Source: a virus. From it: a stretch of 28,808 nucleotides of DNA. Location of the stretch: positions 1 to 28,808 of IMG/VR virus record IMGVR_UViG_3300009164_000267. One strand, written 5' to 3'. The notes under the pieces are model-generated. The model did not search any database. It was not told the DNA's origin and saw only the letters and a program-made list of their open reading frames with translations. Shown here in pieces: positions 5,892 to 25,701 of the stretch; within the stretch, counting starts at the first letter, position 1, and each line of letters begins with the position of its first letter. The position numbers and the translations under genes were made by a program.

Positions 5892-6076
5892 TGGCTAAGA
5901 AAAAAGTAAAAATAGAATTATATGCAGAAGCTCCTTATAAACAAGGATATGATTCTGGATTAGCAAAAGAGGAATTTTTTAATCCATACGCAGACATTGA
6001 GAATGCAGAGGCTGACGCTGATGACTATCAACGTGGATACGAAAATGCTACAGAAATTGTAGAGAGCGTAGAGTAA
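5891..6076 (+). CDS. Small acidic hypothetical protein, 61 aa
   Basis: TAATG overlap with the previous gene. A basic N-terminus (MAKKKVKIELYAE) is followed by an acidic, Tyr-containing stretch with two similar blocks, YKQGYDSGLAKEEFFNPY and DYQRGYENATEI, each with a Q-x-G-Y core. This may be an internal duplication. No known family. Confidence 0.6.
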   Translation: MAKKKVKIELYAEAPYKQGYDSGLAKEEFFNPYADIENAEADADDYQRGYENATEIVESVE

Positions 6077-6096
6077 TTTAACATAAAGGAAATAAA

Positions 6097-6285
6097 ATGA
6101 GCGCACACAATGATATTAAAACACACTTTGATGACTACTTAATGGAGAACGAAAAGTTTGACAAAGGTAATGCATCAGCGGGTACACGTGCCCGCAAAGC
6201 ACTAGCAGAAATGGCTAAAGCAATCAAAGCACGCCGTAATGAAATTACTGCTGAAAAAGCCGCACGTAAAGAAGCTAAGGCTTAA
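6097..6285 (+). CDS. Basic helical small protein (histone-H1/Hc1-like phage protein)
   Basis: 62 aa with a good AAAGGA site at the right distance. The acidic N-terminus is followed by GTRARKALAEMAKAIKARRN and an Ala/Lys/Arg-rich helix. I recognise this type from phage proteins labelled histone-like; a DNA-binding or packaging role is inferred only from composition. Separated by two bases from the following methyltransferase GTG. Confidence 0.6.
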   Translation: MSAHNDIKTHFDDYLMENEKFDKGNASAGTRARKALAEMAKAIKARRNEITAEKAARKEAKA

Positions 6286-7125: not shown

Positions 7126-7803
7126 ATGAGTTATAATAAAACAAAAACAGACCCAGAGTTGGGTCAACAAGTACACGAACACTTAGTTAAAATGGGTGTT
7201 GAAACACCAACAACTTACACAGGTCATATGTCCCGTGTAGGTAAGATTGAATTGATTGAGAGTCATTTCAAAGGTATCATGGAAATATTAGGACTAGACT
7301 TGTCTGATGACAGTTTAATAGAAACACCAAAACGTGTTGCTAAAATGTATGTCAATGAAATTTTCTGGGGGTTAGATTATGAAGCATTTCCAAAGTGTAC
7401 GACTGTCGATAACAAGATGCATTACAATGAAATGGTCGTTGAACGCAACGTTAATGTCCAAAGTAATTGCGAACATCACTTTGTTGTTATTGATGGGCTG
7501 GCTACAGTGGCTTATGTTCCGAAACAAAGAGTCCTCGGATTATCAAAAATTAATCGTATTGTCGAATATTTCAGCAAACGCCCTCAAATCCAAGAGCGAC
7601 TTACAGAACAAATCTTTCATACTCTCCAATTTATACTGGAGACTGAAGATGTTGCGGTAATGATTGACGCACAACACTATTGTGTTAAGTCCCGCGGTGT
7701 AGAAGATACCGGTAGTTCTACTGTAACAAGTAGATTGGGCGGTGGATTTAAGTCTGATCCAGCGGCACGTGCAGAATTCTATCAAATTGCGAGACAGAAA
7801 TGA
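7126..7803 (+). CDS. folE: GTP cyclohydrolase I (FolE)
   Basis: 225 aa. It converts GTP to 7,8-dihydroneopterin triphosphate, the first step towards 7-deazaguanines and folate. Seen motifs: TPKRVAKMY (67-75), the zinc and catalytic NCEHHF (Cys115, His117, His118), VPKQRVLGLSKINRIV (131-146) and AQHYCVKSRGVEDTGS (182-197) with the third zinc ligand Cys186. The length agrees with bacterial FolE. An AAAGGAAGG site precedes the ATG. The stop overlaps the next gene (ATGA). With queD and queE 2-4 kb downstream it completes the GTP-to-CDG part of the pathway, which points to supply of a DNA base rather than folate. I see no consensus promoter in the 76-base leader. Confidence 0.95.
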   Translation: MSYNKTKTDPELGQQVHEHLVKMGVETPTTYTGHMSRVGKIELIESHFKGIMEILGLDLSDDSLIETPKRVAKMYVNEIFWGLDYEAFPKCTTVDNKMHYNEMVVERNVNVQSNCEHHFVVIDGLATVAYVPKQRVLGLSKINRIVEYFSKRPQIQERLTEQIFHTLQFILETEDVAVMIDAQHYCVKSRGVEDTGSSTVTSRLGGGFKSDPAARAEFYQIARQK

Positions 7804-7994
7804 ACAAACGAATCAAAGAATTATTTGAACAAGCTGGTACTGATGTAAGTGGTAAATGGATGAGCATTGATAATGCTGAAAAGTTTGCCGATTCGATTGT
7901 ATGGGAATGTATGAAAATCTGTGAAGATGTTATGAAAAAAGATAACTCTGCACTTACCTGCTGGAGTGCGATCAAAGGAACATTTAGGAGTTGA
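7800..7994 (+). CDS. Small paralogue family member 1 (C-terminus frameshifted)
   Basis: 64 aa. N-terminus MNKRIKELFEQAG and centre KFADSIVWECMKICEDVM place it in a family with four other members in this window (7998, 23275, 25071, 25286). Full-length members end in HFGVEE. Here an extra G at 7977/7978 shifts the frame so that the end reads IKGTFRS. One base less would give IKEHLGVEE and a stop overlapping the next ATG as ATGA. The member at 23275 carries the same shift. The family is familiar from uncultured phages, function unknown. It starts by ATGA overlap with folE. Confidence 0.7.
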   Translation: MNKRIKELFEQAGTDVSGKWMSIDNAEKFADSIVWECMKICEDVMKKDNSALTCWSAIKGTFRS

Positions 7995-8001
7995 AGAATG
8001 A
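7881..8001 (+). repeat. Duplicated segment, copy 1 (matches 23368-23488)
   Basis: By hand alignment 121 bases match the copy at 23368-23488 without gaps and with ten differences. The block covers the C-terminal part of a small paralogue, the shared extra G and the ribosome binding site of the next gene. Confidence 0.8.
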
Positions 8002-8246
8002 ACGAACGAGTTAAAATACTTTGGTCTGAAGCGGCTGAATCCACGATTGGTGATAGTTGGGAAGAGCAGACAAAGTTTATGGAAAAGTTCGCCGAGTTGA
8101 TTGTTCAGGAATGTGCCGATATTATCAATCATCGTGCTGACACATGCAGTGATTGGTTAGATAGTATCAAGGCAAATGAAGCAGTCCGTGAAGTACAAAG
8201 AGAATGTGCTAAAACGATCAAAGAACATTTCGGAGTTGAAGAATGA
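7998..8246 (+). CDS. Small paralogue family member 2, 82 aa
   Basis: Full-length member: MNERVKILWSEAAE, then KFAELIVQECADIIN in the centre and KTIKEHFGVEE at the end. Helical, slightly acidic, no membrane segment or catalytic motif; function unknown. The ribosome binding site GGAG lies inside the end of the preceding paralogue, and its own last codons (GGA GTT GAA GAA) supply the GGAG for the next gene. Confidence 0.75.
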   Translation: MNERVKILWSEAAESTIGDSWEEQTKFMEKFAELIVQECADIINHRADTCSDWLDSIKANEAVREVQRECAKTIKEHFGVEE

Positions 8247-8638
8247 TTGATTGCATGATCTTAGGTGATAGTATTGCTGTTGGCATGCATCAATTTAAAC
8301 CGGAATGTGTAGCTTATGCAAAGGGTGGAATAAATTCTTGGCAATGGAACAAAACTAATCTTAATAAAAACTTATCCGCTTCTAATGTAGTTATTAGTCT
8401 AGGAAGCAACGATCATCCGGGTGTAAGAACTATCTGGGAATTGCAACAACTTAGAGATAAAGTAAAAGCAGATAGAGTATATTGGATTTTACCTGCCATC
8501 AAACCAGACATTCGAGAAATGGTTAAACTTATAGCAAAAGACTATAATGATATTATTCTGCCTATACCTAATTTACAAAAGGATGGTATACATCCAAGTT
8601 GGGAAGGTTATAAAAAATTAGCAAAGGAAATTAAATAA
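8243..8638 (+). CDS. SGNH/GDSL-family hydrolase
   Basis: 131 aa, at the short end for this family. Block I is ILGDS with the nucleophile Ser10, block III is LGSND (Gly54 to Asp57) and block V is DGIHPSW with Asp114 and His117, giving the Ser-His-Asp triad. The block II glycine is probably in YAKGGINSW. SGNH enzymes act as esterases, lipases or sugar deacetylases; the substrate here is unknown. No signal peptide, so it is cytoplasmic or virion-associated. It overlaps both neighbours (ATGA before, TAATG after) in the folE gene run. A sugar O-deacetylase working with the window's glycosyltransferases is one possibility. Confidence 0.8.
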   Translation: MIDCMILGDSIAVGMHQFKPECVAYAKGGINSWQWNKTNLNKNLSASNVVISLGSNDHPGVRTIWELQQLRDKVKADRVYWILPAIKPDIREMVKLIAKDYNDIILPIPNLQKDGIHPSWEGYKKLAKEIK

Positions 8639-9798: not shown

Positions 9799-10341
9799 AT
9801 GTCATTAATAGAAGATACAGTAAGAAAACACAAGTTGCAAAATCAACCAAGTATTTCATATAGATTCACAAGTACAAAAGAATATCACGATAGTTTCCCA
9901 TGTGCATATCGTCAATGGCGTGCAGATAGTCATTGCAATATGATTCATGGTTATAGTTTCAGTATGAAATTCTATTTTGGTACAGATGACTTAGATGTAC
10001 GCAATTGGGCGGCTGACTATGGTGGACTAAAAGAATTGAAGAAGATTCTTGAGGATCAATTTGACCACACATTGTTAGTCGCACAAGATGACCCAGAACT
10101 ACAAACATTTTTAATGCTACAAGAAAAGAAATTAGCTAAGTTAACTATTCTCCCAAGAATTGGGTGTGAGAGTTTAGCCGATATGCTTTACAAATATGTC
10201 AATGGGGTGTATATTCCAGATATGTGGGGTCAAGGTGAAAGTGACCGTCTATGGTGCTATCGTGTTGAAGTACGTGAAACACAAGCTAATATGGCATTCC
10301 GTGAAGGTCATCGTGAATGGAATGAAGATTTATTTGCATGA
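9799..10341 (+). CDS. queD: 6-carboxytetrahydropterin synthase-like protein (QueD)
   Basis: 180 aa. QueD turns dihydroneopterin triphosphate into 6-carboxytetrahydropterin. The family pattern is clear: FPCAYRQWRADSHCNMIHGY (33-52), then WAADYGGLKELKKILEDQFD (70-89) with HTLLV and DDPEL next, and a late WCYRVEVRET segment with the catalytic Glu. It belongs to the longer QueD subtype with HGY instead of HGH. The usual zinc-ligand His of the C-x-H-R-Q motif is Tyr37 here. An AGGAG site precedes the ATG. It opens an overlapping run with queE and glycosyltransferase 2 (ATGA to the next gene). Confidence 0.85.
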   Translation: MSLIEDTVRKHKLQNQPSISYRFTSTKEYHDSFPCAYRQWRADSHCNMIHGYSFSMKFYFGTDDLDVRNWAADYGGLKELKKILEDQFDHTLLVAQDDPELQTFLMLQEKKLAKLTILPRIGCESLADMLYKYVNGVYIPDMWGQGESDRLWCYRVEVRETQANMAFREGHREWNEDLFA

Positions 10342-10577
10342 GTCCTGAACAACAGATTAAGGCACACGAAGAATGGTGTCAACTGCGAATCAAGGCAGCT
10401 GAAGAAGAACGTGACTATGCACTAGGTTTAGCTAGTGCCGCTCACTTAGAATTGATACATGCTATAAAGTATGGATTCAACCCAGGCACAGCACACAGCA
10501 CACTAATCAGTATTGGTAAGTTGAGTCCAAGATTAAATGAAATACGAGAAAAAATGTTAGGTTCAAAGAATGAGTAA
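10338..10577 (+). CDS. Small helical protein between queD and queE, 79 aa
   Basis: ATGA overlap with queD and an eight-base overlap with queE. It is largely helical with a coiled-coil-like N-terminus (EEWCQLRIKAAEEERDYALG). Its position inside the deazaguanine genes suggests a shared schedule, but no function is recognisable. Confidence 0.65.
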   Translation: MSPEQQIKAHEEWCQLRIKAAEEERDYALGLASAAHLELIHAIKYGFNPGTAHSTLISIGKLSPRLNEIREKMLGSKNE

Positions 10578-11412
10578 ATTAAAAATATCAGAATTGTTTT
10601 ATAGTATTCAGGGTGAGGGAAGATACATGGGTGTGCCAAGTGTATTCTTACGCACATTTGGTTGTAACTTCAAATGTGATGGCTTTGGAATGCCTAAAGA
10701 AGAAAAAAGTGTTGAACGTTTTACGGTGGACGGAGAGAAGTTTAAATCTTATAAATCACTACCACTTGTATCTACTGGATGTGATAGCTATGCGAGTTGG
10801 GATCCACGCTTCAAACATCTCAGTCCTGTTCTCGACACCAATATTATTGTTGATACTATTACCAATTTACTTCCTCATGGTCGTTGGAAAGATGAGCATT
10901 TGGTTATCACGGGTGGTGAGCCGCTATTAGGCTGGCAACGTGCTTACATAGACTTGTTGTCACATGACAATATGCGTGGCTTGCAAGAAATAACATTTGA
11001 AACTAATGGCACACAGTTATTAGAATCTGAATTAGTTAGCTTTCTACACGAATGGAAGAAACATCGTTTCTTACATTGTCTGACTTTCAGTGTAAGTCCT
11101 AAACTAAGTATCAGTGGTGAAAATTGGGAAGATGCTATTTGTCCTGATGTTGTTGTGCAATATTATAATACTGGATTTACTTATTTGAAGTTTGTAGTAG
11201 CAACTAAAGAAGATGCAGAAGAAGCGGAGCAAGCAGTAAATGAATATCGTAAAAAGGGTTTTAAAGGTCCTGTGTATCTTATGCCTTGCGGGGGTGTTGA
11301 ACGGGTGTACTCTCTTAATAATAGAAATGTGGCGGAACTCGCAATGCAAAAAGGATGGCGATATAGTGACAGACTCCAAGTCCCACTGTTCAAAAACGAA
11401 TGGGGAACTTGA
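10570..11412 (+). CDS. queE: 7-carboxy-7-deazaguanine synthase (QueE), radical SAM, with loop insertion
   Basis: 280 aa. QueE makes CDG from 6-carboxytetrahydropterin. Seen: SIQGEGRYMGVPSVFLRTFG (12-31) as in QueE, cluster cysteines Cys32 and Cys36 in CNFKC, and Cys71 in STGCDSYASW, which aligns with the WCDT segment of standard QueE. The third cysteine is therefore 34 residues from the second, not two: an insertion in the cluster loop. GGEPLL (115-120) is the SAM-binding glycine motif and ETNGTQ follows. I recall a similar GFGMP-type insertion in QueE of other phages. It overlaps both neighbours, the downstream one by TGATG. Confidence 0.9.
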   Translation: MSKLKISELFYSIQGEGRYMGVPSVFLRTFGCNFKCDGFGMPKEEKSVERFTVDGEKFKSYKSLPLVSTGCDSYASWDPRFKHLSPVLDTNIIVDTITNLLPHGRWKDEHLVITGGEPLLGWQRAYIDLLSHDNMRGLQEITFETNGTQLLESELVSFLHEWKKHRFLHCLTFSVSPKLSISGENWEDAICPDVVVQYYNTGFTYLKFVVATKEDAEEAEQAVNEYRKKGFKGPVYLMPCGGVERVYSLNNRNVAELAMQKGWRYSDRLQVPLFKNEWGT

Positions 11413-12988: not shown

Positions 12989-13818
12989 AAAAAGTTTTAA
13001 TCACAGGTAATTCAGGTTATATTGGTAGTCATCTTAGTAAATTGCTTAATGACGAATACGAGGTCTATGGGCTAGATATAGTAGACCCGCAATTTAGTGT
13101 TAAGAAACATTATAAATTTGATATTAAAAGTCAACTAAAAGTTAAGGAAGAGTTTGATGCTATCATTCACTTAGCCGCATTAGTTAATGTGGGTGAAAGC
13201 GAACTAGAACCCACAGATTATTACATGACTAACCTGTTTGGTACACTAAACATTCTACAACATATTAAGACAAAGAACTTTATCTTTGCTAGCACAGGTG
13301 CAGCCGAAAAGTGCGAAAGTGCATATGGCGTAAGTAAACGGGCAACCGAAGATTGTGTACGTGAGTTTTGTGAAGTGAACAAAGTTCCATACACAACTTT
13401 TAGATTCTACAACGTCATCGGTAGTGATGGATTTAACCCAACCAATCCTGACGGGTTAATGCATAATCTAATGCAAGCCCCAACTAAGGGTGACTTCACT
13501 ATATTTGGTGCAGACTATAATACTCCAGACGGAACTTGTATACGAGACTATGTTCACGTAAACGAGATATGTCATTCCCTTAAATTGGCAATTGAAGAAC
13601 CTAGCAACAGTATAGAGAATTTGGGTCATGGCGTTGGGCATAGTGTCAAAGAAATAGTTCAAATCTTTGAATCCATAAATAACGTGAAATTCTTCACTTT
13701 ATACGGTCCTAGACGTAAAGGTGATATAGAAGTATCTGTTTTAGCAAATCCGTCAAAATACATGAAAAAACTCTATGATATTACGGGACTATTGACGGTT
13801 GACACTAAATATGTGTAG
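12985..13818 (+). CDS. NAD-dependent sugar epimerase/dehydratase (extended SDR, GalE-like)
   Basis: 277 aa, shorter than GalE (about 338). The Rossmann motif is TGNSGYIGSHL (7-17), the acidic residue after strand 2 is in GLDIVD, ASTGAAE supplies the catalytic Ser/Thr region and SAYGVSKRATED contains the Tyr-x3-Lys pair. FYNVIGSDGFNP and TCIRDYVHVNE are typical of GalE-like NDP-sugar epimerases. It probably makes a nucleotide sugar in the cytoplasm. The ATGA overlap with glycosyltransferase 2 suggests that enzyme uses the product. It has an internal promoter upstream, and its own 3' end carries the uvdE promoter. Confidence 0.85.
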   Translation: MKKVLITGNSGYIGSHLSKLLNDEYEVYGLDIVDPQFSVKKHYKFDIKSQLKVKEEFDAIIHLAALVNVGESELEPTDYYMTNLFGTLNILQHIKTKNFIFASTGAAEKCESAYGVSKRATEDCVREFCEVNKVPYTTFRFYNVIGSDGFNPTNPDGLMHNLMQAPTKGDFTIFGADYNTPDGTCIRDYVHVNEICHSLKLAIEEPSNSIENLGHGVGHSVKEIVQIFESINNVKFFTLYGPRRKGDIEVSVLANPSKYMKKLYDITGLLTVDTKYV

Positions 13819-13827
13819 TGATATACT
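13799..13827 (+). promoter_or_regulatory. Consensus promoter for uvdE
   Basis: TTGACA (13799-13804), 17-bp spacer, extended TGA-TATACT (13822-13827), partly inside the end of the epimerase gene. Start expected near 13834, giving a 23-base leader. Confidence 0.8.
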
Positions 13828-13856
13828 TAAGACTTCACATACTTTACATAATATAT

Positions 13857-14876
13857 ATGACTATTAAACGCATTGGTTTTGCTTGCAAATTTGCCGAGAT
13901 TAACAAGAAGGGCGAGATTGCAAGTGTTGACGGACTAAATACTGGCGGTACTACACTTGCATGGGCAAAGCGCCAAACTCGGAGTGTTGCGGAAGATAAG
14001 ATATTGGAAGTTGCACAACGCAATATTACCAATACCCATAATCTCATCAAACGAGTTAGCACACTTGACCCGAGTTTGCGTATGCTACGACTAACTAGCG
14101 ATATGCTTAGTTTTTATACTCACCCCGAATTTCTGGACTTCTGGCATTCAACTGACAATCAGAAATTTCTAAGCGAACAGTTTGCACCCTTAGGTGAGAC
14201 TGCACGACAAAATAATGTGCGTCTTAGTATGCACCCAGACCAGTTTGTTGTTCTGGCAAGCGATAGGGAAGAAGTTGTAACTAACAGTATTCGGGAGTTT
14301 GAGTATCATGCGGACATGGTTAGATTTATGGGCTATGGCAAAACATTTCAAGATTTCAAAATCAATGTACATATCAGTGGACGACAGGGTCCTGAAGGTA
14401 TTCGTAAAGCCTATACCAAACTCTCACCGGAAGCACGTAATTGTATTACTATCGAAAACGAAGAAATTAGTTGGGGTCTAGATGACTGCTTAGAGTTGGC
14501 AGACTTACTACCTATTGTATTAGACATTCATCATCATTGGATTAAAACTGGAGAATATATTGAACACGATAGCGACTTGGTTAAAAAGGTTATTGATAGT
14601 TGGCGTGACCGTAGGCCTACTATGCACTATTCCGTATCTCGGGAAGATGTACTTGTTGACCATGACAGACTTATCGCACCCGATCATGGTGCGTTAATAG
14701 AGGCTGGGCATAATAAACAAAAACTACGTGCCCATAGTGAGTACTATTGGAACGAAGCTGTGAACGACTGGGCATTGACATTCTGTAATAACTTTGATAT
14801 AATGTGCGAATCAAAGGCAAAGAATCTTGCCAGCTTTAAATTATACGAAAGAGCAAAACAAAATGGGATTATTTGA
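13857..14876 (+). CDS. uvdE: UV-damage endonuclease (UvdE family)
   Basis: 339 aa. The enzyme nicks DNA 5' of UV photoproducts and starts an alternative excision repair. The family blocks are complete: KRIGFACK at the N-terminus, LRLTSDML, RLSMHPDQF, NVHISG, ENEEISWGLDDCL and LDIHHHW, carrying the metal-binding His, Glu and Asp residues of the TIM barrel. The ATG at 13857 is chosen because the GTG at 13818 lies at the predicted -10 and would add a hydrophobic non-family stretch. There is no obvious Shine-Dalgarno in the short leader. It fits a phage exposed to sunlight. The 3' end overlaps the next gene by 14 bases. Confidence 0.92.
   Translation: MTIKRIGFACKFAEINKKGEIASVDGLNTGGTTLAWAKRQTRSVAEDKILEVAQRNITNTHNLIKRVSTLDPSLRMLRLTSDMLSFYTHPEFLDFWHSTDNQKFLSEQFAPLGETARQNNVRLSMHPDQFVVLASDREEVVTNSIREFEYHADMVRFMGYGKTFQDFKINVHISGRQGPEGIRKAYTKLSPEARNCITIENEEISWGLDDCLELADLLPIVLDIHHHWIKTGEYIEHDSDLVKKVIDSWRDRRPTMHYSVSREDVLVDHDRLIAPDHGALIEAGHNKQKLRAHSEYYWNEAVNDWALTFCNNFDIMCESKAKNLASFKLYERAKQNGII
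14775..14803 (+). promoter_or_regulatory. Internal consensus promoter in the end of uvdE
   Basis: TTGACA (14775-14780), 17-bp spacer, TATAAT (14798-14803) preceded by TGA. It would serve the gene starting at 14863. Confidence 0.7.
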
Positions 14877-20488: not shown

Positions 20489-20517
20489 TTGATAGTGTAT
20501 CGCAATAGTGATATACT
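20489..20517 (+). promoter_or_regulatory. Promoter with a 5'-terminal hairpin in its leader
   Basis: TTGATA (20489-20494), 17-bp spacer, extended TGA-TATACT (20512-20517). Transcription would start near 20524, exactly where GTGTTC (20524-20529) pairs with GAACAC (20535-20540), so the mRNA would begin with a stem-loop. Confidence 0.75.
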
Positions 20518-20571: not shown

Positions 20572-20844
20572 ATGTCAAATTTTGAAACACCAAAGATACC
20601 AGAAATTAAATTTAACAAGAACGGCTACGAGATTCGCACAGATATTCTTGCTATGGCAAAGGATCTAATCAGCGATGACTTCCATGTAAAATTTTCAGGT
20701 TGGGAAATGACTGCAACACGTGATGAAAAGACAGGTCAAATTGTTACTACAGTTGGCATGCCTCAGCATCCAGGTCTAGAAAAGATTTTGGAAACTGCTG
20801 AAAAGATGTACGGTTTCGTAAATCAAGGCACTACTAAAAAGTAA
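20572..20844 (+). CDS. Conserved phage protein, 90 aa
   Basis: ATG 20572 follows AAAGGAG at a good distance; the upstream ATG at 20524 is at the predicted transcript start. FNKNGYEIRTDILAMAKDLI (19-38), then HPGLEKILETAEKMYGFV is a pattern I recognise from small abundant proteins of T4-like aquatic phages. Function unknown. It forms a one-gene unit with its own promoter, 5' hairpin and terminator, which suggests high expression. Confidence 0.75.
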   Translation: MSNFETPKIPEIKFNKNGYEIRTDILAMAKDLISDDFHVKFSGWEMTATRDEKTGQIVTTVGMPQHPGLEKILETAEKMYGFVNQGTTKK

Positions 20845-20862
20845 TACTTTTAGTTTCAAAGA

Positions 20863-20889
20863 AAGCTCCGCTAGTCGGGGCTTTTTTTT
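20863..20889 (+). terminator. Rho-independent terminator
   Basis: AAGCTCCG (20863-20870), five-base loop, CGGGGCTT (20876-20883), then a run of T to 20889. Eight-pair stem with one G-T wobble. It closes the unit of the gene at 20572. Confidence 0.9.
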
Positions 20890-20898
20890 GCCCAAAAT

Positions 20899-20927
20899 TT
20901 GACAATAAATGGGTTTAGTGCTATACT
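20899..20927 (+). promoter_or_regulatory. Repeated promoter, copy A
   Basis: TTGACA (20899-20904) and extended TGC-TATACT (20922-20927), 17-bp spacer beginning ATAAATGGGTTT, shared with copies at 21268, 21560 and 22001. Its leader (TGTATTGATT then ATTAAAGGAGCT) is nearly the same as that of copy B. Confidence 0.85.
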
Positions 20928-20956
20928 ACATGTATTGATTAATTAAAGGAGCTTGT

Positions 20957-21244
20957 ATGACAGTTGATGTTGCTATCGCCCAAGGTGTTGCTAAAGACAT
21001 GCAACAAAAACGTGAAATCCGCATGTATGGTTGCACTGAAGCCCAGATGCGTGAGGCTGTAGAGCAAAGTATTACTTTTCGTCATAGTGGTCCTGCTATG
21101 ATGGCCGCTAGTCTCATGTCCGATTGTCAGGAAATGATTGCTCACGACAACGGTGGTTCTTACGATTTCATGGTTATCGAAGATGTTCGCCAAGCACTGA
21201 ATCGTGCTAAGTGGATCCTGTTTGAATACTGTGACAAAAGGTAA
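20957..21244 (+). CDS. Conserved phage protein, 95 aa
   Basis: AAAGGAG site eight bases before the ATG. Helical; the block AVEQSITFRHSGPAMMAASL (33-52), then MSDCQEMIAHD recurs in phage hypotheticals. Single-gene unit driven by promoter copy A; probably early. No motif. Confidence 0.7.
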   Translation: MTVDVAIAQGVAKDMQQKREIRMYGCTEAQMREAVEQSITFRHSGPAMMAASLMSDCQEMIAHDNGGSYDFMVIEDVRQALNRAKWILFEYCDKR

Positions 21245-21257
21245 TACTTAATGTTAC

Positions 21258-21296
21258 ATACCCAAACTTGACAATAAATCGGTTTGGGTATATAAT
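21258..21296 (+). promoter_or_regulatory. Repeated promoter, copy B, inside a perfect inverted repeat
   Basis: TTGACA (21268-21273), 17-bp spacer, TATAAT (21291-21296). ATACCCAAAC (21258-21267) and GTTTGGGTAT (21282-21291) are perfect 10-base inverted repeats that enclose the -35 hexamer and touch the -10, a possible operator. Confidence 0.85.
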
Positions 21297-21326
21297 ACTT
21301 GTATTGATTGATTAAAGGAGCTAGTT

Positions 21327-21563
21327 ATGAAGGTAAAACTTTTTGTTACAGGTAGTCAGAATTACATGTATTTCAAAAACAAACTTCCTACTAGGCGTTG
21401 GGATTACTGTGAGACAGCCCGTACAGTGACCATCATCCCTGATCCGGTCAACGTCTACCAAGACGGTGAGTATGGTTTTGTGACAGTTTTTGGTCGTAAG
21501 ATTTTTGTCAAATGTGACGGAAGTCACTGGGAAATCGTTGGTGCTGAGAAATCCAAAACTTGA
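21327..21563 (+). CDS. Small phage protein, 78 aa
   Basis: AAAGGAG before ATG 21327. Strand-rich: KVKLFVTGSQNYMYFKNKL, TARTVTIIPDPVNVYQDGEY, then GFVTVFGRKIFVKC. No family named with confidence. Its TGA stop lies inside the -35 hexamer of promoter copy C. Confidence 0.65.
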   Translation: MKVKLFVTGSQNYMYFKNKLPTRRWDYCETARTVTIIPDPVNVYQDGEYGFVTVFGRKIFVKCDGSHWEIVGAEKSKT

Positions 21564-21588
21564 CAGTAAATGGATTTGGGTATATAAT
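21560..21588 (+). promoter_or_regulatory. Repeated promoter, copy C
   Basis: TTGACA (21560-21565), 17-bp spacer, TATAAT (21583-21588). An imperfect inverted repeat ATCCAAA / TTTGGGT flanks the -35, as in copy B. The leader resembles that of copy D. Confidence 0.85.
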
Positions 21589-21620
21589 AGAATCTTAAAC
21601 AGTCGAAACAAGGAAACAAA

Positions 21621-21998
21621 ATGTCAAACGAATTCAAATCTTGGGAAGAAATGTCTGAGCTGGAACAAGCCCGCGAGACCTTCTGGGACATGTACAAGGA
21701 TGCTCATGGTTTTCGTCCCCGACATGTAGATACCTCGGGCTGGACTCTTGCTGAGTTCCAAGCAGAGTTTGATTACCTTGGTGGAATTATTGAACAAGAG
21801 GAAGCCCATCGCAAAGCCTCCGAAGCAGAGGCTATCATCAAGTTTGAACAGCATGTGACCAACACTATATGTATGGGTGCTCGCAACCGTGAGACCGCGC
21901 TTAAATGGATTATGGATGCTAGCAATGCTAATGGCGACTGGGAATATCTTTCCCATGAACTGGGCTTGCCCTATAGCTATTTCAAGCAAGTGGCCTGA
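21621..21998 (+). CDS. Conserved phage protein, 125 aa
   Basis: Preceded by an AAGGAAAC leader. Residues 18-30 (ARETFWDMYKDAH) and GFRPRHVDTSGWTLAEFQAE form a motif that I recognise in many phage hypotheticals (F-W-x-M-Y-K-D-x-x-G-x-R-P-R). The rest is helical with an acidic QEEAHRKASEAEA segment. Function unknown; likely early by its strong promoter. Confidence 0.75.
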   Translation: MSNEFKSWEEMSELEQARETFWDMYKDAHGFRPRHVDTSGWTLAEFQAEFDYLGGIIEQEEAHRKASEAEAIIKFEQHVTNTICMGARNRETALKWIMDASNANGDWEYLSHELGLPYSYFKQVA

Positions 21999-22000
21999 GG

Positions 22001-22029
22001 TTGACAATAAATGGGTTTGGGTATATAAT
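22001..22029 (+). promoter_or_regulatory. Repeated promoter, copy D
   Basis: TTGACA (22001-22006), spacer ATAAATGGGTTTGGGTA (17), TATAAT (22024-22029). Directly after the stop of the preceding gene. Confidence 0.85.
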
Positions 22030-22061
22030 AGAGTCTTAGACAGTCAAGAAAAGGAAACGAA

Positions 22062-22334
22062 ATGTCACAAATGCTTTGCTACACACTTGAAATTTACAAA
22101 TCTGACAAGCGTACCAAAGAAGGTAAGCGTTTGGTTGCAAAACAAGATTTTGGCCCTTCTACTAAAGACTATATTGAGACTGTTGCCAATGCTAAACGCA
22201 AGTTGGGTTTCATTGTTGAGATGTTCCAAACTTATGAGATTAAGCAAAATTTAATGACTGGCAAAACATATAAGGAACGTTACGACACCCCGTATTTCTG
22301 TTCTCCTTCTAGCGAATCTTTTTGGAGCATGTAA
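22062..22334 (+). CDS. Conserved phage protein, 90 aa
   Basis: AAGGAAAC leader like that of the gene at 21621. YTLEIYKSDKRTKEGKRLVA at the start and AKRKLGFIVEMFQTYEIKQN in the middle suggest a small alpha/beta fold; I recall the D-x-R-T-K-E-G motif in other phage proteins. No catalytic residues evident. Confidence 0.65.
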   Translation: MSQMLCYTLEIYKSDKRTKEGKRLVAKQDFGPSTKDYIETVANAKRKLGFIVEMFQTYEIKQNLMTGKTYKERYDTPYFCSPSSESFWSM

Positions 22335-22336
22335 TC

Positions 22337-22993
22337 ATGGCTCGCTATCAAAAACCCGTACTTAATTATAACGCCGATGCTGTTTGGGCCGCGTCTTGTG
22401 CCGCTCAACGTATCAATGGTGCTTATGTTAAACTGAGTATGATTAGCGAATCGGATCCTGAAATGGATCGTAAATCTAATCGCCAAATTATAGAATCATT
22501 GATGACCGATGCTACACCGATCACCGATGAGGACCGTGAACAGGGAAAGAAAGTTCGCAAATACTATCAAGCACTTACCTTCAAAATCCTTAAAGGAATT
22601 AAATTAAGTGAATTTGATAACACTGCAATGCTTATTAGTAATCGTGATATCATTAATGATAATTATGATGTGGCAGTTATAGCAAGTTTGCCTAGTTGCT
22701 ATGAGCGAGGTGTTAAACGTGATGGTGTGGACCAACGAGTCAAATTTGCTACCGGCGGGTATATCGGTAGAGTTGGTGATAAGGTTACTTTTACGGTTGA
22801 AATTGCCAAAACTAATTATAGTCAAAAATGGAATACCAATTATGTTACTGGAATTACTACCGATGACCAAGCAGTATTTTTTGCCTACAATCACATTGAC
22901 AATGTTGAAATCGGGAATACTTATACCTTTTCCGGAACTATTAAATCACACCGAGACAACCTAACACAACTGAATCGGGTAAAGATCGTTTGA
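22337..22993 (+). CDS. Phage protein with C-terminal OB-fold-like domain, 218 aa
   Basis: ATG 22337 with GGAG ten bases upstream. The N-terminal half is helical (NADAVWAASCAAQRINGAYV). The C-terminal ~85 residues (YIGRVGDKVTFTVEIAKTNY, TNYVTGITTDDQAVFFAY, YTFSGTIKSHRDNLTQLNRV) follow the strand order and G-x-v-G-x-K...G-T-[IV]-K-x-H...L-N/T-R-V-K pattern of an OB fold found in several phage proteins. A role in binding single-stranded DNA or another nucleic acid is likely but not proven. The TGA stop is part of the next promoter's -35. Confidence 0.7.
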   Translation: MARYQKPVLNYNADAVWAASCAAQRINGAYVKLSMISESDPEMDRKSNRQIIESLMTDATPITDEDREQGKKVRKYYQALTFKILKGIKLSEFDNTAMLISNRDIINDNYDVAVIASLPSCYERGVKRDGVDQRVKFATGGYIGRVGDKVTFTVEIAKTNYSQKWNTNYVTGITTDDQAVFFAYNHIDNVEIGNTYTFSGTIKSHRDNLTQLNRVKIV

Positions 22994-23018
22994 CAATATA
23001 TCCTCTATACTGTATACT
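22990..23018 (+). promoter_or_regulatory. Consensus promoter for two tiny membrane proteins
   Basis: TTGACA (22990-22995), 17-bp spacer, TATACT (23013-23018); a TATAAT at 23018-23023 is out of phase. CAGGAG follows before ATG 23049. Confidence 0.8.
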
Positions 23019-23274: not shown

Positions 23275-23481
23275 ATGAATCAACGAATTAAAGAACTAGA
23301 ACAACAATGCTGGAGCCATCGTGTAGACGGCGTACTAGTAGACGGCCATTTACACTTTGATACAAAAAAGTTTGCTGATTTGATTGTATGGGAATGTATG
23401 AAAATCTGTGAAGATGTTATGCAAAAAGATAACTCTGCGCTTGCCTGTTGGAGTGGAATCAAAGGAACATTTCGGAGTTGA
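23275..23481 (+). CDS. Small paralogue family member 3 (C-terminus frameshifted)
   Basis: 68 aa from ATG 23275; the GTG at 23266 is less likely. MNQRIKELEQQCW, then KFADLIVWECMKICEDVMQK define the family. Ends IKGTFRS because of an extra G at 23464/23465, the same change as in the member at 7800. Without it the end would read IKEHFGVE with a stop at TAATG of the next gene. Its middle and end are nearly identical at DNA level to that member. Confidence 0.7.
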   Translation: MNQRIKELEQQCWSHRVDGVLVDGHLHFDTKKFADLIVWECMKICEDVMQKDNSALACWSGIKGTFRS

Positions 23482-23488
23482 ATAATGA
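23368..23488 (+). repeat. Duplicated segment, copy 2 (matches 7881-8001)
   Basis: Ungapped 121-base match with ten differences by hand alignment, including the shared extra G and the GGAG site. Confidence 0.8.
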
Positions 23489-23736
23489 TATTTGATTTTT
23501 TTAAGAATCGCGGTGACTACTCTAACGTAGTTAAATTCCCTGATAAGGTGCCTTATGTTGAGCCACCAAAAAGAGAAGTTGGACCAGAACCAGTGTATAG
23601 TATTGGAACAACTGATCAAAGTACTCACATGACTTTCAAGATTGGTTATACTACACTTACTATGACTAAGCAAGGTTGTCAAGATTTGATAGACCAACTT
23701 GAAGTTTTTAAAAATCAATTGAGGGGTGAAGAATGA
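23485..23736 (+). CDS. Small phage protein, 83 aa
   Basis: ATG 23485, with GGAG supplied by the end of the preceding paralogue. N-terminus MIFDFFKNRGD is followed by a Pro-rich linker (DKVPYVEPPKREVGPEPVYS) and a small strand domain (STHMTFKIGYTTLTMTKQGC). The domain resembles short phage hypotheticals, function unknown. ATGA overlap with the ligase gene. Confidence 0.65.
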   Translation: MIFDFFKNRGDYSNVVKFPDKVPYVEPPKREVGPEPVYSIGTTDQSTHMTFKIGYTTLTMTKQGCQDLIDQLEVFKNQLRGEE

Positions 23737-25070
23737 GTGCAAGTTGGATTAGAAAACTAAACGAGAGTGACAGTCGCCTTCATAAAGAAGATGTGATTTT
23801 GCAGGCACTTGAGGCAAGTGTCCTAGGCAGTCGCAATAGTCAGATTTTCTTAGGCTTTACTAAGGCTTGTTATAATCCTTATGTTACATTTGGAGTGCGT
23901 CAAGTGCCCGATACAGTAGGCATTGTTGATGCAGAAAATCCTTGGGATGATTTTAACGAGTTGATGTTGCAACTTAGTCAACGTCAATTGACAGGGCATG
24001 CCGCACGTGATGCTATTCAAAACTTGGCTGAACGTTTTGATAGTGTTGAATGGAATACATTTTTAGCACCTGTACTACGCAGAGACCTTCGTGCAGGTAT
24101 TAGTGATAAGACAATCAATAAAATTTGCAAAGGTACTGATTACGAGATTCCAATCTTTGGTTGTCAACTAGCAACTAACAGTGAAGGTCGTCCCGAGATG
24201 AAAGGTATCAAACGTCTTGAACCTAAGCTAGACGGCGTTCGTATGTTGCTGATGCTTATTCCTAGTGATGATGGTACAGTTACAACTATTTGCTTTAGTC
24301 GTAATGGTAAACAGTTTGACAACTTTGGTCATATTGAAGAACAGATTCGTGATAACTGGGTCAAGATGGTTCGTAAAGCCGCAACAAGTAATTTAAGCAT
24401 GGGCTTTGTACTTGACGGTGAAGTGATTGGTAATACATTCCAAGAACTCATGCGACAAGCACGCCGTAAGACTGATGTACAAGCAGAGGATAGTGTGTAC
24501 AATGTGTTTGATATTATTCCTCTTGATGCTTTCCGTAAAGGTCATTGGAATGCACAGTTGAGTAAACGCATTACTATTTTAGAAGACATGCGTTCAACTA
24601 TTGATACTATGCCCAATGTTGAGTTGTTACCACACTTGATGGTTGACTTGGACACCGGAGCAGGTGTGGATCAACTACAACGATATGCTAAGGATCAAGT
24701 CAATCTAGGATTCGAAGGCATTATGATTAAGAATGTTGATGCCCCGTATATCTGTAAACGCAGTACAGATTGGATGAAATGGAAGCCCACAATTACTGTA
24801 GACTTGGAGGTCGTAGGTGTTGAAGAAGGTACTGGAAGAAATGAAGGGCGACTTGGTGCATTAGTTTGCGCCGGACAAGATGACGGAAAAGATATTACCG
24901 TCAATGTTGGCAGTGGCTTTAGCGATACTGATAGAGATGATTATTGGAGCAATAGTAATCATATTATTGGTCGTACTGCTGAAATCATGTGTGATGTAAT
25001 TACGCAAAATCGTGATGGTACATACAGTTTGCGCTTTCCACGATTTGTTAGATTTAGGGATGACAAATGA
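23733..25070 (+). CDS. ATP-dependent DNA ligase
   Basis: 445 aa, near T4 gp30 (487 aa). Motif I is EPKLDGVR (163-170) with Lys165 as the AMP-accepting residue; FSRNGKQFDNFG is motif Ia-like; VLDGEVIG is motif III; FEGIMIKNVDAPY is motif IV; and DWMKWKP is motif V. The N-terminal helical ~140 residues correspond to the DNA-binding domain, and an OB domain follows motif V. It seals nicks left after flap removal, matching the exonuclease at 16186. It has ATGA coupling upstream, then a family paralogue begins directly at its stop. Confidence 0.95.
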   Translation: MSASWIRKLNESDSRLHKEDVILQALEASVLGSRNSQIFLGFTKACYNPYVTFGVRQVPDTVGIVDAENPWDDFNELMLQLSQRQLTGHAARDAIQNLAERFDSVEWNTFLAPVLRRDLRAGISDKTINKICKGTDYEIPIFGCQLATNSEGRPEMKGIKRLEPKLDGVRMLLMLIPSDDGTVTTICFSRNGKQFDNFGHIEEQIRDNWVKMVRKAATSNLSMGFVLDGEVIGNTFQELMRQARRKTDVQAEDSVYNVFDIIPLDAFRKGHWNAQLSKRITILEDMRSTIDTMPNVELLPHLMVDLDTGAGVDQLQRYAKDQVNLGFEGIMIKNVDAPYICKRSTDWMKWKPTITVDLEVVGVEEGTGRNEGRLGALVCAGQDDGKDITVNVGSGFSDTDRDDYWSNSNHIIGRTAEIMCDVITQNRDGTYSLRFPRFVRFRDDK

Positions 25071-25289
25071 ATGAACGAACGAATTGAACATTGTTTGTAT
25101 CAAGCAGGACTCACTGCACAAGGTTGCTGGGAGGATTTAGATACTTACACGCAAGAAGGCATTGAAAAGTTTGCCGAGTTGATTGTGAAGGAATGTTTGG
25201 CTGTAATCAATCAGTCTAATGGTGTGGGTGACGATGATGTTATCAAAATTAGCAGGGATGTGAAGAAACATTTCGGAGTTGAAGAATGA
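25071..25289 (+). CDS. Small paralogue family member 4, 72 aa
   Basis: MNERIEHCLYQAG, KFAELIVKECLAVIN and the HFGVEE end place it in the family. It begins immediately after the ligase stop. Its last codons carry the GGAG for the next paralogue. Intact reading frame. Confidence 0.75.
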   Translation: MNERIEHCLYQAGLTAQGCWEDLDTYTQEGIEKFAELIVKECLAVINQSNGVGDDDVIKISRDVKKHFGVEE

Positions 25290-25528
25290 ACGAACAAATT
25301 AAAAAACTTTTAGATGAAGCCACTGTTTATGCATTGCATGAAACTAAAGATGCGGTTGACTTCTTTGATAATCCTGTAACAAAACAACAACGTGAACGTC
25401 AATTAGAACTGTTTGCCCAGTTGATTATTAAGGAATGTGGCGTAGCATTGGCACCAATGTTACGTGATATGATTAGTCGTGGTCAGGCATATGATTTGAT
25501 TAAACAACATTTCGGAGTTGAAGAATGA
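25286..25528 (+). CDS. Small paralogue family member 5, 80 aa
   Basis: MNEQIKKLLDEAT, LFAQLIIKECGVAL and IKQHFGVEE. ATGA overlap with member 4; tandem arrangement suggests local duplication. The end provides the GGAG for the small membrane protein that follows. Confidence 0.75.
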   Translation: MNEQIKKLLDEATVYALHETKDAVDFFDNPVTKQQRERQLELFAQLIIKECGVALAPMLRDMISRGQAYDLIKQHFGVEE

Positions 25529-25701
25529 TTAAACTTTGGTTAGCATTTATTATCCTTGCTGTTCTTATTCACCTTGGCATTAGTGCTTTGCGAAATATGA
25601 ACGGTTTGGAACAATTAGCCTTGACAAAAAGCATAGGCTATAGTATACTTGTATCACTGGCAGCAGTAATGCTGATGACAGTAATTGTTATTTTATTTTA
25701 A
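25525..25701 (+). CDS. 58-aa two-helix membrane protein
   Basis: ATGA start. Two membrane helices: KLWLAFIILAVLIHLGISAL and later YSILVSLAAVMLMTVIVILF, joined by a short polar loop. Function unknown. The promoter of the SPFH gene lies inside it. Confidence 0.65.
   Translation: MIKLWLAFIILAVLIHLGISALRNMNGLEQLALTKSIGYSILVSLAAVMLMTVIVILF
25621..25649 (+). promoter_or_regulatory. Consensus promoter for the SPFH lipoprotein gene
   Basis: TTGACA (25621-25626), 17-bp spacer, TATACT (25644-25649), within the upstream membrane-protein gene. Leader of about 54 bases ends in AAGGAAAAAC before ATG 25710. Confidence 0.8.

Follow-up and report, generated by a model that had tools for sequence, protein, structure and literature searches.

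Why would four promoters in a row, each placed before a different small gene, resemble one another in the spacer as well as in the −35 and −10 hexamers? The question is raised by an array of small genes in a 28.8-kb fragment of one virus record (28,808 nt, hereafter the window). The genes of the window, which include those for a DNA polymerase, a ligase, an exonuclease, GTP cyclohydrolase, QueD/QueE and an endonuclease of the UV-damage type, suggest by their predicted products a large tailed phage. The 6-kb stretch around the array has no nucleotide match among 50,697 cultured phages, nor does gene A of the array show nucleotide similarity to cultured phages. Elsewhere in the window, the GTP cyclohydrolase, QueD-like and QueE-like genes (7126–7803, 9799–10341 and 10570–11412) together suggest that phage DNA or tRNA may be modified with 7-deazaguanine (preQ0-type), and the endonuclease (13818–14876) is 48% identical to an enzyme of 260-kb phages of Dickeya and Erwinia that is a putative endonuclease of UV damage repair.

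Results

Four promoters with one spacer precede four unrelated genes

All features of the array lie on the + strand. Gene Z (20572–20844, 90 aa), the conserved left neighbour of the array, has a promoter which a pattern scan placed at 20489–20517 (TTGATA-N17-TATACT with an extended −10) and which lies outside the class defined below. Between gene Z and the array, folding predicts an intrinsic terminator (20858–20888; 13-bp stem, T8, z −2.3) with counterparts in the related loci L334 and L089; this is the sole terminator of the array, and none was found between the cassettes. Promoter A (20899–20927), a variant of the form TTTAGTGC-TATACT with an extended −10 (TGC), is followed by a leader that carries a ribosome-binding site (20928–20956; TGTATTGATT...AAAGGAGCT, type 1) and by gene A (20957–21244, 95 aa; all-helical model, pLDDT 90), which ends 23 nt before the next −35. 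Promoter B (21268–21296) again has a type 1 leader (21297–21326) and leads to gene B (21327–21563, 78 aa), whose TGA stop (21561–21563) falls within the −35 hexamer of promoter C (21560–21588). A second type of leader (21589–21620; CTTAAACAGTC...AAGGAAAC, type 2) precedes gene C (21621–21998, 125 aa), and only 2 nt separate this gene from the −35 of promoter D (22001–22029), the spacer of which is the exact class consensus and which is followed by another type 2 leader (22030–22061) and by gene D (22062–22334, 90 aa). Gene E (22337–22993, 218 aa) comes directly after D and has no promoter of its own, and the −35 of the promoter of gene F (22990–23018), which is not of the class, also holds the stop codon of gene E. 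An Rfam search of the array returned nothing, and the folding of the leaders, weaker than that of shuffled sequence, does not suggest a riboswitch or thermometer.

The sequence-only reading of this DNA had pointed to promoters starting at 20899, 21268, 21560 and 22001, and all four are there, with the form TTGACA-N17-TATAAT except that the first copy has TATACT. The shared spacer that it described is borne out as well: the six pairs of copies match at 11–16 of 17 positions, against a mean of 4.6 for random 17-mers of the window (P(≥11)=0.0014) and of 5.35 for the 60 other spacer pairs that the window's 12 perfect promoters form. About one perfect promoter would be expected by chance; only four carry the class spacer, and the promoter at 13799 partly resembles copy A (12 of 17 spacer positions). 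The reversed promoter pattern has zero matches in the window. Furthermore, the leaders pair as had been proposed, A with B (83% over 65 nt) and C with D (88% over 67 nt), and the four products, which had been called unrelated, share no sequence similarity with each other.

The promoters belong to a discrete class with a constrained spacer

Relatives of gene A occur in 269 stretches of viral contigs, and the loci compared here were fetched solely for encoding relatives of genes A, C or D. Among the distinct perfect promoters of these loci (TTGACA-N17-TATAMT), which were unselected for spacer, the spacer match is bimodal with centres at 4–5 and 14–15 of 17 positions, and the promoters of the array therefore represent a discrete class. 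In 1.85 Mb, a weight matrix of the class finds 505 sites at score 24, against 0 in the reversed sequence. Members carry the hexamers and spacing of sigma-70 promoters (TTGACA and TATAAT about 17 bp apart), and the consensus of 93 representatives, one per downstream gene family, is CAAARk-TTGACA-ATAAAT-SGN-TTTGGGTA-TATAAT-A.

In the logo of these representatives, positions −28 to −24 and −20 to −16 hold 1.2–2.0 bits, position −21 is nearly free (0.13 bit) and signal is absent upstream of about −42; the absolute spacer values are inflated by the choice of class sites through a threshold of spacer similarity, whereas the dip in mid-spacer and the bimodality are not artefacts of that choice. Across genomes, positions −23 to −21 have drifted, the two flanking halves of the spacer are fixed, and the leader and upstream flank are conserved far less than the spacer. 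Since drift is confined between two fixed flanks, selection appears to read the spacer, and in the relatives of the array the spacer is indeed conserved, so that the sequence-only reading withstands the refuting test that it had set itself.

In 80% of class members the start codon follows the −10 at 27–34 nt, which leaves space for a short leader, and the downstream proteins have a median length of 89 aa. In 168 of 475 class promoters TTGACA contains the TGA stop of the upstream gene, and no more than 3 of 460 upstream ORFs continue beyond the −35 stop into the promoter; genes and promoters therefore abut exactly.

Distribution and lineage dialects

The strict class pattern occurs in at least 120 stretches of viral contigs, and a slightly broader one in two stretches among 257 Gb of contigs from bacteria and archaea. 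One of the two is on a contig of 4.9 kb from a metagenome-assembled genome, and the proteins encoded there leave the nature of this contig unsettled. Among cultured phages no match covers 80% of the 32-base query. Four records hold 17–21 strict-to-near copies each, and one of 525 kb holds 35 (the counts listed for long records are 21, 21, 19 and 35), with zero in the controls. The class precedes about 100 families of small proteins, a count that is approximate as single-linkage clustering merges A with D through a chimeric protein; almost all are without known function, and few Pfam matches were found among 102 family representatives.

Spacers are more alike within a contig (13.25/17) than between orthologous promoters of different contigs (12.10/17; permutation p=0.0002), and whole lineages use other spacers. 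Several large records that encode orthologs have no class copies. Three records with orthologs of C or D (G014, G006 and G015, the records of L142, L016 and L143) hold 0, 0 and 2 class copies and, in each case, eight copies of a second dialect, TTGACC-ARAAATNCCCAWTTTGC-TATAAT (reversed matches, 0). In this dialect an extended −10 is paired with a weaker −35, which looks like a trade-off in promoter strength. Further dialects occur in L117, L238 and L095; a third one, roughly TTGACT-TTGGGnnnnATTGGGCA-TATAAT with the TTGGG box twice in the spacer, is found in L095, L099, L101, L238 and L230, at one copy per short contig.

Small genes are swapped at class promoters

The gene order Z-A-B-C-D-E of the window is replaced by Z-A-D-E in L334, Z-X-D-E in L089 and Z-A-C-D-E in L012. 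An identical stretch comprising the end of gene A, the promoter and the type 1 leader leads to gene B in the window, to gene D in L334 and to gene C in L012. Leaders are exchanged too: gene D has a type 2 leader in the window and a type 1 leader in L087, L175, L012, L334 and L089, and the leader of gene C in L087 is a hybrid, half of each type. In L175, a 52-aa ORF (5997–6155; MRKVSTLVLVVMLASCAQ..., lipoprotein-like) forms a precise insertion between gene C and the gene D promoter.

We examined junctions more generally with a simple gene caller, using pairs of junctions (not independent of each other) whose upstream orthologs were 85–95% identical. The downstream gene was unchanged in 34% of the pairs where a class promoter lay at the junction, in 98% where another promoter did and in 62% where there was none, and where both genes encoded at most 160 aa the values were 33%, 96% and 54%; the family means were 0.39, 0.94 and 0.68, respectively. 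At all identity levels the class gave the lowest value when the upstream gene was kept constant; when the downstream gene was kept constant instead, at 70–85% identity, family means did not differ (0.19 for the class versus 0.16 for other promoters). Faster turnover of the genes behind class promoters may contribute to the junction result; the size-matched controls still differ, and the gap is smaller after averaging by family. The gene orders thus show that neighbours are shuffled at class promoters, which act as recombination joints for small genes. The proposal of duplicated promoter cassettes is thereby strongly supported, by the leader swaps among orthologs, by the presence or absence of genes with joints at promoters and by the homogeneity of copies within genomes.

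Separately, the window contains families of dispersed repeats of 53–123 nt, up to 92% identical, which lie at the ends or starts of small genes in two distant clusters (7798–8282 and 23362–25530) and apparently form a second set of repeated gene-boundary sequences.

Products of genes A–D

Searches of Pfam and PHROG gave no informative function for genes A–D: A, B and D belong to no functional family, and gene C matches phrog_21968, an unannotated PHROG. Gene D is predicted to encode an alpha/beta protein (pLDDT about 90, as for gene A), and the models of A and D had no Foldseek match to solved structures at E≤0.001. Dmd is an antitoxin against RnlA/LsoA, and the two best second-look structural alignments of gene D were with the Dmd proteins of T4 and RB69 (Z 5.8 and 5.4 over about 50 residues); these values lie below the trusted level and a profile comparison with T4 Dmd was empty, so that we reject the assignment and keep it only as a lead.

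The C-terminal end of gene D, CSPSSESFWSM, is near-invariant to the last residue and closes a module that occurs on at least three different N-terminal parts (in gene D and in L153–L163, L202, L203 and L247). One N-terminal part, AAKRSATC, is also fused to a C-terminal end of the gene A type in L203. Judging from these fusions, the small proteins are built from modules of their own, and the invariant tail may serve as a tag.

What reads the spacer

The sequence-only reading had held that sigma-70 does not read the spacer. This was too strong, given that RNA polymerase contacts the promoter at −18 to −12 (PMC5101437). TTTGG at −20 to −16 and an extended −10 (TGn) are nearly exclusive of each other (3/92 versus 52/142, p=4e-10); exclusion between TTTGGG and TGn is partly built in at position 20, and the figures given were recomputed with TTTGG alone, where it still holds. 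Moreover, TGn within the class accompanies a weaker −10, such as the TATACT of copy A (p=3e-9 at the level of families; p=8e-5 for distinct 29-mers), and orthologs of gene A have either TTTGG or ACTCTGC at the same promoter position. The exclusion and the trade-off point to RNA polymerase as one reader, and the pattern resembles the trade-off known among elements of sigma-70 promoters; the exclusion could instead come from two separately descended promoter lineages. TAAAT at −28 to −24, which is present in 101 of 234 unselected promoters, one third of them without TTTGGG, lies outside the known sigma-70 contacts (PMC5101437), and polymerase alone may be insufficient to explain it. From these patterns we favour polymerase as the main reader and regard a lineage-specific factor as a serious rival.

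Discussion

Taking the evidence as a whole, the explanation that we lean towards, with modest confidence, is that of a discrete class of strong sigma-70-type promoters shaped both by selection on the spacer and by recombination between copies. The four promoters of the window would be members of a class of phage promoters predicted to be active and very strong, and each promoter with its short leader would form a cassette of 60–65 bp that has been copied before unrelated small genes. Selection would act on most positions of the spacer: TTTGGG at −20 to −15 most likely replaces the extended −10 in the contacts with RNA polymerase, and TAAAT at −28 to −24 may be an extension of the −35 element. 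Recombination between copies, in turn, would swap small genes between promoter joints and homogenize promoters within each lineage of phages, giving it a ‘dialect’.

A dedicated regulator that binds the spacer, as the sequence-only reading allowed, is possible, and of the alternatives it survives best, though we think it distinctly less probable. The spacer would then be bound by an activator or early-gene repressor that the phage or its host encodes, the genes behind the cassettes would form one regulon, and a regulator specific to each lineage would account for the dialects. Aca proteins, which regulate acr promoters, provide a model for such a repressor. The strong conservation of TAAAT beyond the known polymerase contacts fits this proposal, as do the absence of class copies from several large records with orthologs and the recurrence of dialects on orthologous genes (the second dialect with its eight copies in each of three records, for example). 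In addition, a conserved early promoter of the archaeal virus SIRV2 is likely to be repressed by Aca8 (PMC11065993). However, AAA/TTT is the only inverted repeat seen in the motif, and several relatives have TGC rather than TTTGG in the gene A promoter, which fits a polymerase element and not an operator. We also consider, as a tentative reading of doubtful standing, that the spacer is a lineage-specific address for a cognate factor, a phage-encoded or virion-delivered appropriator of polymerase, which would read TAAAT-N3-TTTGGG or the spacer of another lineage.

It is improbable, in our estimate, that the likeness reflects copying alone, with one cassette recently duplicated and spread and a spacer read by nothing. 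Identical copies do occur within a genome (nine exact copies of TTGACATTAAATGGTTTTGGGTATATAAT in a 303-kb record), spacers are similar within genomes and leaders have been copied together with promoters; but neutral decay should be even, whereas −23 to −21 has drifted between spacer halves that were kept, leader and upstream flank are far less conserved than the spacer, and TAAAT occurs without TTTGGG in other promoters of the same genomes. Finally, the idea that these are ordinary strong sigma-70 promoters, alike by chance or through AT-rich composition, might appeal to the 12 near-perfect promoters of the window, a sign that strong promoters are common in this phage, but it is refuted by the spacer-pair and reversed-sequence controls and by the T4 early-like promoters taken as a contrast set (mean spacer identity 4.9/17), and can be dismissed with near certainty.

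For the selected and recombining class that we favour, the closest known system is that of the mobile regulatory cassettes of T4, the PeSLs, which are described in T4-type phages as composite promoter–terminator motifs (Arbiol et al., 2010, and Comeau et al., 2014, as cited in PMC4503421 and PMC4177764). As far as those accounts portray them, PeSLs share with the present class the repetition of early-type promoter units between small accessory genes, marking the joints of modular shuffling, and differ in their terminators: an upstream terminator hairpin accompanies only 42 of 483 class promoters, and one of the four in the window. The two also differ in that the gene before a class promoter often has its stop codon within the −35 hexamer, and in the spacer, which reaches 2 bits per position in the class and at most 0.26 bit in T4 early-like promoters. 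In certain archaeal viruses, likewise, one closely similar regulatory sequence precedes many unrelated, poorly conserved small genes, and these conserved early-promoter sequences served to find anti-defence genes; those are TATA/BRE promoters, early by transcriptome data, whereas the present class is of the sigma-70 type and known from sequence alone (PMC11065993). With respect to promoter elements, sigma region 3.0 and the beta-prime zipper make contact with the sequence upstream of the −10, and TTTGGG resembles the extended −10 and the −17/−18 Z-element in spanning contacted positions and trading off with TGn; in contrast, TAAAT at −28 to −24 and the near-fixed 17-bp spacer match no known element (PMC5101437).

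The sequence-only reading had also found that genes A–D fit a set of early host-takeover genes. This is plausible, considering their small size, their rapid swapping and the analogy with the archaeal virus early promoters (PMC11065993), and the class would accordingly be expected to fire early and its products may act against the host. The class may thus serve as a sequence beacon for small genes of rapid turnover, possibly anti-host ones, in uncultured large phages, and it offers a tractable case in which promoters are expression signals and recombination joints at once. If confirmed, TAAAT would represent a new promoter element that extends the −35. Whether promoter spacers serve phages as a recognition code, moreover, can be tested directly on the near-fixed spacer and its dialects; if the spacer is indeed an address, a gene landing behind a cassette would be enlisted at once in the early programme, and the promoter would be a plug-in socket for foreign small genes.
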